Source: Spirosoma fluviale (lineage in GTDB: Bacteria > Bacteroidota > Bacteroidia > Cytophagales > Cyclobacteriaceae). Taken from it: a stretch of 44,225 nucleotides of DNA. Position 1 is the stretch's first letter. Each line of letters starts with the position of its first letter. This document shows, piece by piece, positions 4,543-33,932 of the stretch. The notes under the pieces are model-generated. The model searched no databases. It was not told where the DNA came from and saw only the letters and a program-made list of their open reading frames with translations. Location of the stretch: the NCBI GenBank assembly GCA_945868725.1, contig CAMBMU010000014.1, positions 1 through 44,225 on the forward strand, written 5' to 3'. The position numbers and the translations under genes are program-made.

Positions 4543-5322
4543 ATGACTCTTTTTCAAAGCATCCTGATTGCCATAGTCGAAGGACTTACTGAATTTCTCC
4601 CCATTTCTTCCACGGGCCACATGATTTTGGCCTCCACAGCTATGGGCATTCACGAGGATGAATTTGTAAAGACCTTCGAAGTATTCATTCAATTGGGGGC
4701 TATCTTGGCCATTGCCTTGATGTACATCAAGCGGTTCTTCCGAAACTTGACCATTTATTTCAAGTTGATTACCGCATTTCTTCCCACAGCGGTAGTGGGT
4801 TTTTTGGCTTACGACTACATCAAAGCCTACCTATTTAATCCCATCGTGGTGTCGGTTTCTCTTATTTTGGGAGGGATAATTCTAATCTTTATCGATAAAA
4901 AAGTAGCCGCTCAAGGCAGCACCGTGGTGGAGGTAGAAGATATTTCTTACAAAAATGCCTTCTTCATCGGGCTTTGCCAATGTCTCTCCATGGTGCCAGG
5001 CACTTCTCGCGCCGCAGCCACGATTATTGGCGGGGTATTTAATGGCTTGGACAAAAGACAGGCTACCGAATTTTCCTTCTTGCTTGCCGTGCCCACCATG
5101 CTCGCAGCGGGGGGTTATGACCTTCTCAAAACCGATCTCGCTTTTAGCAGCGAGCAGCTGATGCTATTGGGGATTGGCTTTGTAGTGGCCTTTGCCTCTG
5201 CTTGGGGGGCAGTTAAATTGTTTTTGACTTACGTATCCACCCATGGCTTCAAGGCCTTTGGTTGGTACCGAATTGCCCTCGGGATATTGTTCTTAATCTT
5301 TATGTGGGGAGCTGATTTGTAA
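4543..5322 (+). CDS. uppP: Undecaprenyl-diphosphatase UppP (BacA family)
   Basis: This 259-residue integral membrane enzyme dephosphorylates undecaprenyl pyrophosphate to recycle the lipid carrier for peptidoglycan and other surface polymers. Both family signatures are present: EGLTEFLPISSTGHMIL from residue 13, and VPGTSRAAATIIGG from residue 151, whose Arg and Ser line the active site. Multiple hydrophobic helices cover the rest. Length is normal. The start is an ATG shortly after a good TAnnTTTG promoter motif. It is a single-gene unit, convergent with the S9 peptidase across a repeat-filled gap. Confidence 0.96.
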   Translation: MTLFQSILIAIVEGLTEFLPISSTGHMILASTAMGIHEDEFVKTFEVFIQLGAILAIALMYIKRFFRNLTIYFKLITAFLPTAVVGFLAYDYIKAYLFNPIVVSVSLILGGIILIFIDKKVAAQGSTVVEVEDISYKNAFFIGLCQCLSMVPGTSRAAATIIGGVFNGLDKRQATEFSFLLAVPTMLAAGGYDLLKTDLAFSSEQLMLLGIGFVVAFASAWGAVKLFLTYVSTHGFKAFGWYRIALGILFLIFMWGADL

Positions 5323-5334
5323 TTTATTTGAAAT

Positions 5335-5525
5335 TGTCAACGGACGACAGTCCACGGTCCACGGCCCACTCATTTGAACCTCAAACGTTATCCTTTTCCC
5401 TTTAAAGGTAAATACGGCTTATTATTTAACCCAGGCCGTATTTCCGTGAAGTAGTTTGCTCTAATGGGAACAAAGCCTGAAGTTCGTTTCAATTTGCTGT
5501 CGACCGTCGACTGTGAACTGTCGAC
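5335..5525. repeat. Heptad-bounded intergenic element, copy A
   Basis: The left end is five back-to-back heptads at 5335-5369 (tgtcaac ggacgac, then agtccac ggtccac ggcccac). The right end is four at 5498-5525 (tgtcgac cgtcgac tgtgaac tgtcgac). Nearly all fit N-GTNNAC. The two ends are roughly inverted copies of each other and are followed inward by related TTGAACNTCAA and AATTTG-type sequence. Inside is a 9-base stem, AAATACGGC/GCCGTATTT (5410-5443). Copy A shares its right boundary with copy B. No protein is encoded. Confidence 0.75.
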
Positions 5526-5748
5526 AACTTGACAACAGTCCACGGCTCACTCAATTGAACTTCAAGCATTATTCTTTCCTTAAAGGTAGATGCGGCTAAT
5601 CACCTAATCTAGGTGGTTTATTAACTAAAAGAGGCTATCCCGTATGGAAACAGCCTCTTTTTTACCTGTATTTTCTATGTGAATTTGTCCCTAGTAGGAA
5701 CTAGGATTGAGGTTCATTACAATTTGCTGTCGACCGTCGACTGTTGAC
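5498..5748. repeat. Heptad-bounded intergenic element, copy B
   Basis: The left heptads lie at 5498-5550 (ending agtccac ggctcac) and the right ones at 5728-5748 (tgtcgac cgtcgac tgttgac). The interior starts CAATTGAACTTCAAGC and runs through TTAAAGGTAGATGCGGCT, closely matching copy A's TTAAAGGTAAATACGGCT. Bases 5490-5514 and 5720-5744 are identical over 25 positions, 230 apart. Read from outside, the two ends share CAACAGTCSACGG, CAA(A)TTG and GAACYTCAA in order, so they are gapped terminal inverted repeats. Confidence 0.75.
5627..5663 (+). terminator. Intrinsic terminator-like hairpin inside element B
   Basis: AAAAGAGGCT (5627-5636) pairs perfectly with AGCCTCTTTT (5652-5661), and more T follows. 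The A-run on the other side means it could act on both strands, serving uppP (300 bases upstream) or the convergent S9 peptidase. It is carried within repeat copy B. Confidence 0.6.
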
Positions 5749-5787: not shown

Positions 5788-8202
5788 TTACTTTTTGTTT
5801 TTCACGTACTTTTCTAGCCAGCTGTCCATTTCCCAAAGGGTATGAAGCACGGATTCCTTGCCCGCATAGCCATGGCTTTCGTGAGGGAGGAGTACCAGTC
5901 TCGTCGTAGCACCATGTCCCTTGAGGGCGTTGTAGTAGCGCTCGGATTGGATAGGGAAAGTCCCTGAATTGTTATCTGCCTCCCCATGGATTAGGAGTAT
6001 TGGAGTCTTGACCTGATCTGCAAAAGAGAAGGGAGACATGTTGAAATATACTTCTGGGGCCTCCCAATAGCTTCGCTGCTCGTACTGGAATCCAAAGGGA
6101 GTCAGGGTGCGGTTGTAAGCGCCACTTCTAGCAATGCCTGCGGCAAAGAGCTGGGTGTGGGAAAGCAAGTTGGCGGTCATAAAGGCGCCATAGGAATGTC
6201 CTCCTACTGCAATGCGGCTTCTATCTCCAACACCCATTTCTACTACCTTGTTGATGGCTGCTTCTGCATTGGCCACCAGCTGCTCAATAAAGAAATCGTT
6301 GGGTTCCAGTTCCCCTTCCCCTACGATAGGCATTTCGGTTTGGTCCATGATCGCATAGCCACGGGTTACCCAATAAAGTGGAGAGCCCCAGCTGAGGCGT
6401 GTAAAGGTGTACTTGGAGCCTCTCACCTGTGCTGCATCGGCTGCGGACTTGTACTCTCTTGGATAGGCCCACATGAGCACAGGAAGTCGCCCATCACGGC
6501 TAGGATCGTATCCTTCGGGGGTGTATAAGACGGCGGAGAGGTTGAGGCCATCTTTCCGAGGGTAGGTGATCAACTGCTTTTTTATTCCTTTGAGCGTAGG
6601 ATAAGGATCTGCAAAAGCCGTGATCTGCTTGGGAGCAACTCGTTTTTTGGTGTTGACCAACCAATAGTTGGGACTCATGTCGGTGCTCTCTTTCAGGGTG
6701 ATCAAAAGTGAACCCTCCTTATCGAGTACTTTTGTTACTCGTTCGTAGTAAGGTGCTTGGGAGCGCCACAAGATTTTCTGCTCCTTGGTGCTGGTATTAA
6801 AGGTAGATAGAAAAGGCATGCTTCCTTCTGGGCTGCCCCCTTCGGAGGTCATAACTACCAGATCTCCATTTCTTAGGAGCACTTTTTTCCCGTAGGCATT
6901 GTCTGTAAGTACTGGACTGCCTGGATCTTGATACAAGTCGTCTGTGGACCGTTCGAAAAGCAGAACTGGGGACACCTGCGGTTGCGCGGGACGGATGAGG
7001 GATAACTTCTCTGTGCGGCTTGCTGACCAACGCTCGCTAAGCAAGGCAAAATTATCGTCTGACCAGCTGATGCCACCAAATCGCATGGTGGTACCTACTA
7101 ATTTTTGCTTTTCGCCTGTAAAGGGGGCCATCAAGGTGAACATGATGTCCCTTTCGGCCACTTTAATTTTGGGATCGCCTTTGTCTTGTGCTTCTGCCCA
7201 ATACAGGGTAGCAGGGGTATCTGCTCGCCAGTTGACATTTCGAATTCCACTGACGGTAGCATCAAAGCCAGTTGGCCTCACCTCATCTAGCGGAAGTTGT
7301 GCCAGGGTTTTCAAGACTGCACCTTGACTGCTCCAAATTTCTACGGTGTATGGAAATCGGTCCGCAGGTACGAGGTAGGAGAATGGCTTTTGAATGGACT
7401 CGACCAAGAGGTAATTTTTATCGGGGCTGAGGAGCATGGATTTGATCATGGCGGGTTTTCCCACTGCCGTACTGCTGCCATCAAGCTTGATGTGTAGGAG
7501 TTGAGCGTCCATAAAATAGGCAAACAAGGCCTCATCGTGGGGATTGGCAAGCAAATCCTGGTAGGTGCGGCTAGGAGCAGCTTTACCTGAGGTTTCTTGG
7601 ATGGTTGGTCCGGCAGGAGCGACTGGTGCCGAAGGAACTTTTCCTCGAGCGGGATTGACCGCTTTGATGAGTAGGCTATTGTCTGCTAGCCAGGCCATGG
7701 AGTTTCCAAGAACTTGGTTAAGGATAGGACCAGTGACTGCTTTGGCAGTATAGGTACTAAGGTCGACTACCCAGAGGCTGATGCCTTTGGCTTCGGTTTG
7801 GGTAAAAGCCAAGTAGCGCTCGTCCATGGAGAAGGTAAAGCCAGACATTTTCGCTGGGGAAGGAAGTCCAGTTACCAGTATTTCTTCTCCCGTCGCTGTT
7901 TTTTTGATTTTCAAGTTGATATATCCTCCTGCTCGACTAGGGCCAGAGGTACTCGGATTTATTCGTAGCCCGGCAATACGAAGCTCCGGCTGAGCCAAGT
8001 CTTCGATGGAAGGAGATTCTGTTCGTTCCAGGAGTAGCATGAAGGAACCGTCCTTGGAAAATGTGACTGCCGGGGTGGAAGGCGCATTGACTAGGTCAGC
8101 AATGGCTGCCGGGGGAGTTTGATAGGAACTTTGTGCAGATACAGCCGAACTGATCAGTAGCACGAAGCCCAGAAAGAGGGAAGGAAGAGAGGCTATTTTC
8201 AT
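5788..8202 (-). CDS. Secreted S9-family serine peptidase (glutamyl endopeptidase-like, S9D)
   Basis: This 804-residue protein has a cleavable signal peptide (MKIASLPSLFLGFVLLISSA, then VSAQ). A beta-propeller-like N-terminal half is followed by an alpha/beta-hydrolase domain. Catalytic residues can be placed: Ser670 in GGHSYGAFMTANLL, Asp743 in HGEADNNSGTFPIQSERYY, and His777 in PHESHGYAGKES. The NNSGTFP segment resembles the S9D glutamyl endopeptidases known from chloroplasts and Bacteroidota rather than classical DPP-IV. It probably trims peptides in the periplasm or outside the cell. It stands alone, between the repeat-filled gap and the gliding lipoprotein gene, from which it is separated by a terminator. 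Confidence 0.92.
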   Translation of the reverse strand: MKIASLPSLFLGFVLLISSAVSAQSSYQTPPAAIADLVNAPSTPAVTFSKDGSFMLLLERTESPSIEDLAQPELRIAGLRINPSTSGPSRAGGYINLKIKKTATGEEILVTGLPSPAKMSGFTFSMDERYLAFTQTEAKGISLWVVDLSTYTAKAVTGPILNQVLGNSMAWLADNSLLIKAVNPARGKVPSAPVAPAGPTIQETSGKAAPSRTYQDLLANPHDEALFAYFMDAQLLHIKLDGSSTAVGKPAMIKSMLLSPDKNYLLVESIQKPFSYLVPADRFPYTVEIWSSQGAVLKTLAQLPLDEVRPTGFDATVSGIRNVNWRADTPATLYWAEAQDKGDPKIKVAERDIMFTLMAPFTGEKQKLVGTTMRFGGISWSDDNFALLSERWSASRTEKLSLIRPAQPQVSPVLLFERSTDDLYQDPGSPVLTDNAYGKKVLLRNGDLVVMTSEGGSPEGSMPFLSTFNTSTKEQKILWRSQAPYYERVTKVLDKEGSLLITLKESTDMSPNYWLVNTKKRVAPKQITAFADPYPTLKGIKKQLITYPRKDGLNLSAVLYTPEGYDPSRDGRLPVLMWAYPREYKSAADAAQVRGSKYTFTRLSWGSPLYWVTRGYAIMDQTEMPIVGEGELEPNDFFIEQLVANAEAAINKVVEMGVGDRSRIAVGGHSYGAFMTANLLSHTQLFAAGIARSGAYNRTLTPFGFQYEQRSYWEAPEVYFNMSPFSFADQVKTPILLIHGEADNNSGTFPIQSERYYNALKGHGATTRLVLLPHESHGYAGKESVLHTLWEMDSWLEKYVKNKK

Positions 8203-33743: not shown

Positions 33744-33932
33744 CGTTGGCAGACCACGGTCAACTGTCCACAGCTCACCTAATTGAACTTCAAACCCTAT
33801 TTTCTTTGGTTAGTGGTGATAAAGCGGAAAATCAATCGTTGACAGACCACGGTCCACTGCTGATTTCAGTTGTAGTACGATTTGACTCATTAATTACAAT
33901 TGGCTGTCATCTGTGGACTGTCAACCGTTGAC
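33744..33932. repeat. Heptad-bounded intergenic element, copy C
   Basis: The left array at 33744-33778 is cgttggc agaccac, then ggtcaac tgtccac agctcac. The right array at 33905-33932 is tgtcatc tgtggac, then tgtcaac cgttgac. An extra internal block lies at 33837-33857 (cgttgac agaccac ggtccac). The interior begins TAATTGAACTTCAAACCC, as in copies A and B. The left 28 or so bases, from AATCAATCGTTG, recur 93 bases on with few changes. The gap 33607-33978 holds no gene that I can support. Confidence 0.72.

Follow-up and report, generated by a model that had tools for sequence, protein, structure and literature searches.

Among the described systems, those closest to the elements reported here are the intervening sequences (IVS) of 23S rRNA. 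In these, for example in Coxiella, an S23p gene likewise lies within an inverted-repeat unit that is suspected of being mobile, with tandem heptameric repeats located directly upstream of the S23p ORF (PMC4990558). The same source gives the origin of IVS as a long-standing open question, to which mobility is an old guess, and describes S23p as a homopentamer in a solved homologue and as a protein of unknown function (PMC4990558). The S23p fold is shared by the bAvd proteins of diversity-generating retroelements (PF22296; 4dwl, 8ub7), with which weak Foldseek matches were obtained; bAvd profile hits, also weak and below the cut-off, were found in three of the four S23p proteins tested. A likeness of PF05635 to Avd has been noted before (PMC10053308), yet the S23p proteins considered here belong to PF05635 rather than to bAvd.

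Two further groups of short intergenic repeats invite comparison. REP/REPIN sequences, which go together with RAYT (PF01797), are likewise present in many copies and arranged as inverted pairs; by contrast, the elements analyzed here have a 7-nt pitch and ends that are matched to S23p genes, and no arrays were present at 30 RAYT loci. Intergenic direct repeats of 7 nt are also represented by the TAACTGA-type heptamers, reported for Beggiatoaceae, Cyanobacteria and some Bacteroidetes, with larger heptamer assemblages in Elizabethkingia and other heptamers in Gramella (PMC4679880). According to that report, these consist of one heptamer in direct orientation, mostly just upstream of start codons in the main species (PMC4679880), whereas the units described here vary around a word, form inverted pairs and are linked to S23p. 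Hence, S23p proteins, rRNA intervening sequences, heptamer repeats elsewhere and the Coxiella heptamers are already known; within the open-licence papers searched (most subscription papers and all preprints fell outside this scope), we found no description of a general link between S23p and heptamers.

Heptad elements between uppP and an S9 peptidase gene

The window, that is, the whole stretch of 44,225 nucleotides under analysis, contains two adjoining heptad elements, copies A and B, which occupy the gap between the convergent uppP and S9 peptidase ORFs (Table 1). Copy A starts 13 bases after the uppP stop, and the stop of the S9 peptidase ORF is situated 39 bases past the last copy B unit. 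On re-reading, the coordinates and sequences of the heptad units given in the initial annotation were correct, and both the 25-base block described as identical in the two copies (5490-5514 and 5720-5744) and the terminal inverted repeats were present, the latter as the inverted ends I1 (43 nt, 72%) and I7 (13 nt, 92%). With regard to frequency, GTNNACNGTNNAC occurred 10 times in the window compared to 0.18 expected, and three-unit runs with one mismatch allowed were found 11 times compared to 0.00 expected. The window ORF listing contained no ORF in either copy. In contrast to IVS, the copies thus lie between protein genes and outside 23S rRNA, lack an ORF and are bounded by an array at either end, with numerous relatives across the genome; in line with this, no Rfam match was obtained in the window.

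Table 1. Coordinates of the heptad elements and their host genes in the window
Feature	Position	Strand	Details
uppP, host gene	4543..5322	+	Name from the initial annotation; ORF confirmed
Copy A, left array	5336..5369	+	Five heptads: GTCAACG GACGACA GTCCACG GTCCACG GCCCACT
Copy A, interior hairpin	5410..5443	+	AAATACGGC .. GCCGTATTT
Copy A, right array, inverted	5499..5525	-	Four units
Copy B, left array	5531..5550	+	Three units: GACAACA GTCCACG GCTCAC
Copy B, terminator-like interior hairpin	5627..5661	+	AAAAGAGGCT .. AGCCTCTTTT
Copy B, right array, inverted	5729..5748	-	Three units
S9 peptidase ORF, host gene, convergent	5788..8202	-	Name from the initial annotation
Second heptad element of the window	33745..33932	.	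Arrays at 33745-33778 and 33838-33857, inverted array at 33906-33932

The uppP-S9 slot was readable in 12 genomes, the source genome included, and in six of them an element was found at the same place with its array pattern kept. Inspected by eye, the interior of all six contained one of two unlike terminator hairpins, with four relatives carrying the other hairpin in place of the AAAAGAGGCTGTCCC..GACAGCCTCTTTT type. This retention of the heptads while the interiors differ supports in part the earlier proposals of a mobile element and of an array of sites for a DNA-binding protein. In the six other readable genomes, namely G062, G063, G058, G055, G056 and G042 (L047, L049, L051, L053, L056 and L058), no S9 end was found within 700 bp past uppP, and uppP was followed by a plain terminator; two further genomes, unreadable by the script, are not counted in this survey. 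The element in this slot would carry a two-way transcription terminator between the convergent genes, a role that may be the reason for its being kept there. The AAAAGAGGCTGTCCC..GACAGCCTCTTTT-type hairpin, located at 5627-5661 in the window, recurs inside several elements (L004, L005 and L007).

Distribution and turnover of heptad arrays

In the source assembly (2.81 Mb, 82% complete), 88 runs of three perfect GTNNAC units were counted, far above the single run obtained with the reversed-pattern control, and a BLAST search with the window element returned 82 matches. Within 42 segments of this genome, comprising 221,337 bases, 128 arrays were found and none with the reversed control, although these segments were mostly picked for containing hits and the array density in them is therefore not genome-wide. 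Regarding their ORF context, 22 of 51 array clusters were located between co-directional ORFs, 17 between convergent and 8 between divergent ones, with 4 at contig edges, as compared to 61 co-directional, 23 convergent and 22 divergent ORF pairs in the same segments. A single cluster overlapped an ORF, which was an S23p gene, and 13 of the 51 started no more than 13 bases past the stop of the upstream ORF.

The unit had been read initially as a free base plus a palindrome. Instead, alignment of 35 hand-bounded elements (one row of which, C56:4790, is one base out of register) revealed an oriented word, GTCNACR, in which positions 1, 3, 5 and 6 are nearly fixed, position 4 is free and position 7 is mostly a purine; unit 2 of the arrays often did not begin with GT.

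The search for such runs in related genomes yielded heptad matches in 54 of 72 genomes of the genus and in 45 of 148 of the family, with GTNNAC triplet counts spanning from 0 to 88 per genome within the genus. The reversed control pattern, consisting of CANNTG units with a 7-nt pitch, was itself frequent in G052 of the genus (33) and in G182 of the family (72), where it may represent an additional word of this type. One family of heptad elements has GATTATCCGC / GCGGATAATC at its borders, which in turn forms a terminal inverted repeat; the members of this family are C18:7985-8332 in G000 (L109) as well as L011, L018, L020-L022, L024 and L030. The C18 member was missing in G062 and G066, with flank matches that overlap there by about 11 bases, and the GATTATCCGC / GCGGATAATC element may be a separate MITE that merged with the arrays.

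Turnover was observed at one orthologous slot. At this slot, one of those on contig C18, the sister genomes G062 and G066 were 97% and 99% alike in their flanks, yet their slots were alike over 51 bp only; conversely, the elements of G066 and G065 were 99% alike over 208 bp, with flanks that were 88% and 96% alike. Element replacement can therefore outpace the divergence of its neighbours. This replacement, together with the many inverted arrays in the genome, lends partial support to the mobile element and the protein-site array suggested at the outset. The RAYT/Y1 transposase that had been suggested as a partner is not supported: PF01797 hits were obtained in 64 of 71 genus genomes, and none of the 30 RAYT loci examined, a subset of these hits, had arrays, which also speaks against a REP/REPIN identity.

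Association of array word and pitch with S23p proteins

On contig C18 of the source genome (C18:14485-15463), arrays flank a gene of 116 amino acids (C18:14798-15145), the product of which is an S23p protein (PF05635, E 2.6e-28; TIGR02436, E 8.4e-26). Its AlphaFold model (pLDDT 93) matched 2gsc and 2rld, of five chains each, and gave weaker Foldseek matches to Avd chains of diversity-generating retroelements. In six relatives in which both flanks were in reach, the orthologous site measured 59-74 bp compared to about 990 bp in the source genome, but array remnants were found in the five of these that were read, so the comparison of filled and empty sites yielded short sites that were not cleanly empty. 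G062 also has a contig, C127, that starts inside the last element of the C18 site, with both states thus present in one assembly.

S23p was found in 68 of 71 genus genomes. When 30 of these loci were scanned under a strict threshold over 1.5 kb on either side, lag-7 periodicity was detected in 19, whereas lags 4-6 and 8-11 gave none in the same 30 loci, and lag 7 gave none at the control loci (0/30 RAYT, 0/16 uppP). A laxer threshold, with lag 7 alone scored and no other-lag control, showed a lag-7 run in 30 of 30. The runs were located close to the gene, and their words included GTACNAA, AAGTATC, AAGACNT and AAGANCC, among others.

We also analyzed named genomes, using the best 80 of 498 S23p stretches. 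Within 300 bp of the gene in these best 80, the strict threshold gave lag 7 in 26 loci, lag 8 in 9 and lag 9 in 1, with no other lag except the lag-14 harmonic (13); the lax threshold gave lag 7 in 47 and lag 8 in 16, and lag-7 arrays were also present farther off in 17. A pitch of 7 was called in 46 of the best 80 and a pitch of 8 in 13, with neither in 21. These calls covered 11 phyla, several of them represented by a single pitch-called locus: Bacteroidota, Verrucomicrobiota, Omnitrophota, Chloroflexota, Elusimicrobiota, Fibrobacterota, Acidobacteriota, Cyanobacteriota, Pseudomonadota, Bacillota and, with pitch 8, Thermodesulfobacteriota. When the cut was relaxed to 18 of 28, lag 7 was found in 83 of 110 loci and lag 5 in 9 of 110. 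S23p genes were thus associated with 7- or 8-nt arrays at most of the loci tested, usually on both sides, as seen at 58 of the 88 loci to which pitch 7 or 8 was assigned. Across the 71 arrays that passed a score cut-off, which works against short arrays, the median length was 4.6 units (quartiles 4.3-4.9).

Both word and pitch agreed with the S23p protein clade. On a tree of 110 S23p proteins, pitch 7/8 changed 3 times, compared to 12.4 in shuffled data, and 0 of 500 shuffles were as low; the 22 loci without a call of 7 or 8 were excluded from this count, and some rows are identical proteins, probably from the same genomes in two collections. Eleven of the 13 pitch-8 loci fell into one clade of 18 rows, which included no pitch-7 row and took in one locus from another phylum; its support of 94 is below the starred level, in a quick tree of 121 columns.

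With regard to the word, protein similarity and word similarity within the genus were correlated with r = 0.81 (48 loci, 28 genomes), while word shuffles within genomes gave a mean r of 0.43 and reached 0.81 in 0 of 2000 cases. The correlation was 0.63 for 39 same-genome pairs and 0.65 for pairs below 0.7 protein similarity (0/1000 shuffles). The input to this test consisted of 61 loci, namely 40 new ones and 21 of the 30 loci L156-L185, from which seven doubles of newly fetched loci as well as L166 and L173 had been excluded; 6 of the 61 were without an ORF, 6 were without an array at 16 of 24, and L177, the same as L266, was counted once, which left the 48 used. Within the genus, the array word therefore tracks the protein rather than the genome, and words differed between S23p units of one genome. 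Since the gene and its arrays are linked in one unit, descent alone would give agreement between word and protein, and shared descent could explain part of this match. The two ends of an S23p unit carried the same word, one of them inverted, with a match of 22.5 of 28 within units (49 loci) and 14.9 between clades.

Relatives of the C18 protein at 70% identity or more were present in 15 of 71 genus genomes, the source genome included; of 18 such places, one per genome was analyzed, and three further ones in G035, G043 and G002 were left out. The flanks of these 15 loci contained 2-8 GT..AC units (median 5, with about 1.25 expected by chance), on both sides in 13 of them, whereas 14 other S23p loci had 0-1. 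The array of L312 in G035, GTCAACAGACGACAGTCCACGGTCCACGGC, agreed with window positions 5336-5365 at 29 of 30 letters. The GTCNACR pattern is hence common to the window copies and to the S23p units of the C18 clade.

GTNNAC triplets were also more numerous in genomes with the C18 clade, with a median of 10 (15 genomes) compared to 2 in those without it (56 genomes; p = 0.009, or p = 0.021 minus the source genome), and of 10 (11) compared to 1 (38) among near-complete genomes (p = 0.0014). Array-rich close relatives in which no C18-clade gene was found do occur, e.g., G064 with 43 and G034 with 29, most of these assemblies being 74-89% complete; G043 has a C18-clade gene and zero triplets. For a second word, AGAC.., arrays occurred in 6 of 10 genomes with its own protein and in 11 of 61 without (p = 0.0096), falling to 4 of 10 (p = 0.13) when hits in the gene's own flanks were removed, which lends weak support to the notion that these arrays follow their protein.

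Copies A and B share with S23p elements the inverted arrays of a 7-nt word at both ends. As they contain no S23p gene and the matching gene is found elsewhere, on C18, they were classed as gene-less relatives rather than full members, and the reading that suits them best is that of S23p elements lacking the gene.

Proposed relationship and alternative explanations

Based on these results, copies A and B probably belong, as members without a gene, to a family of selfish elements centred on S23p (PF05635 / TIGR02436). In the full unit, the S23p gene would be enclosed by a pair of inverted arrays, each of about 4-5 words, with a 7-nt pitch that is replaced by 8 nt in one S23p protein clade, while copies A and B would retain two arrays of the C18-clade word GTCNACR and enclose a short hairpin where the gene would otherwise lie. 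We infer that an S23p pentamer may recognise the words at each end, whether in DNA or in RNA, with each subunit reading one of them, and that its ring may hold both element ends together. S23p would support the spread of its own unit, and gene-less copies would be maintained and moved in trans by host enzymes. TRAP, a ring protein that reads (G/U)AG repeats, one per subunit, offers a possible analogy for this mechanism, the two proteins being unrelated.

More tentatively, and with a likelihood that we place slightly short of even, the S23p family as a whole might consist of pentameric readers of clade-specific 7- or 8-nt words, one per subunit and at both gene ends. It would then define a group of mobile elements, spread over many phyla, that had so far escaped recognition; rRNA intervening sequences would be a special case of this group and gene-less arrays its non-autonomous copies, and word specificity would shift with the protein like a natural repeat-recognition code.

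Three other explanations were weighed against the S23p-based reading. S23p units and arrays might merely be co-inherited, with the arrays acting as RNA stems, in RNase III processing or as terminators, and not being read by S23p. RNase III is reported to excise IVS RNA (PMC4990558), and both window copies folded far better than shuffled sequences (z -4.4 and -5.5 for A and B, respectively), so that the RNA fold suggested initially is possible. Moreover, the upstream and downstream arrays matched in reverse complement, as described above for 49 S23p loci, and a terminator hairpin was seen in all six readable element-bearing uppP-S9 slots. However, the two ends showed no covariation at their variable positions: over 35 elements, own pairs matched at 5.74 of 12 positions and cross pairs at 6.47, and a stem preserved by covariation was rejected on these grounds. 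That own pairs match less is probably due to the ends of family-c elements, which differ and occur in both orientations. In S23p units (40 loci), the match between own ends, 22.6 of 28, was close to the 21.7 of same-clade cross pairs, indicating that most of it corresponds to the shared word. As pairing requires neither a fixed 7-nt pitch nor one that depends on the clade, we regard this explanation as unlikely.

An ordinary DDE or Y1 transposase that binds the heptads of a MITE, with the S23p gene as a passenger, appears more doubtful still. The heptad elements do resemble MITEs in their terminal inverted repeats and many copies, and tandem copies are arranged head to tail. Nevertheless, RAYT loci, which represent Y1, the family searched, were devoid of arrays in all 30 cases, and the varied words at S23p genes across many phyla do not fit one transposase family. 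Nor was target duplication significant (p = 0.34 over 19 clusters, tandem junctions removed); an early strong signal was an artefact of tandem copies sharing a spacer and disappeared after their removal. Finally, the arrays might be sites for a chromosome-organising or regulatory protein of the host, independent of S23p, in keeping with the scarcity of ORF overlap among the 51 clusters and with the 13 that start right after an upstream ORF. This seems very improbable, given the range of counts, from none to 88, inside one genus, the different words of S23p units in a single genome and the change in slot content between sister genomes.

Solved structures (2gsc, 2rld) are available for S23p, which is widely spread, and the clade-specific word and pitch next to most of the S23p genes tested make its function directly testable, since they predict what the protein binds, where it does so and how its specificity should switch. 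S23p elements could also account for one class of degenerate 7-nt intergenic repeats in the genus and the family. Much longer arrays, of about 9 units or more, were present at the S23p loci L156 (G041), L171 (G058), L203 and L208, and could serve as material for studying changes in unit number.
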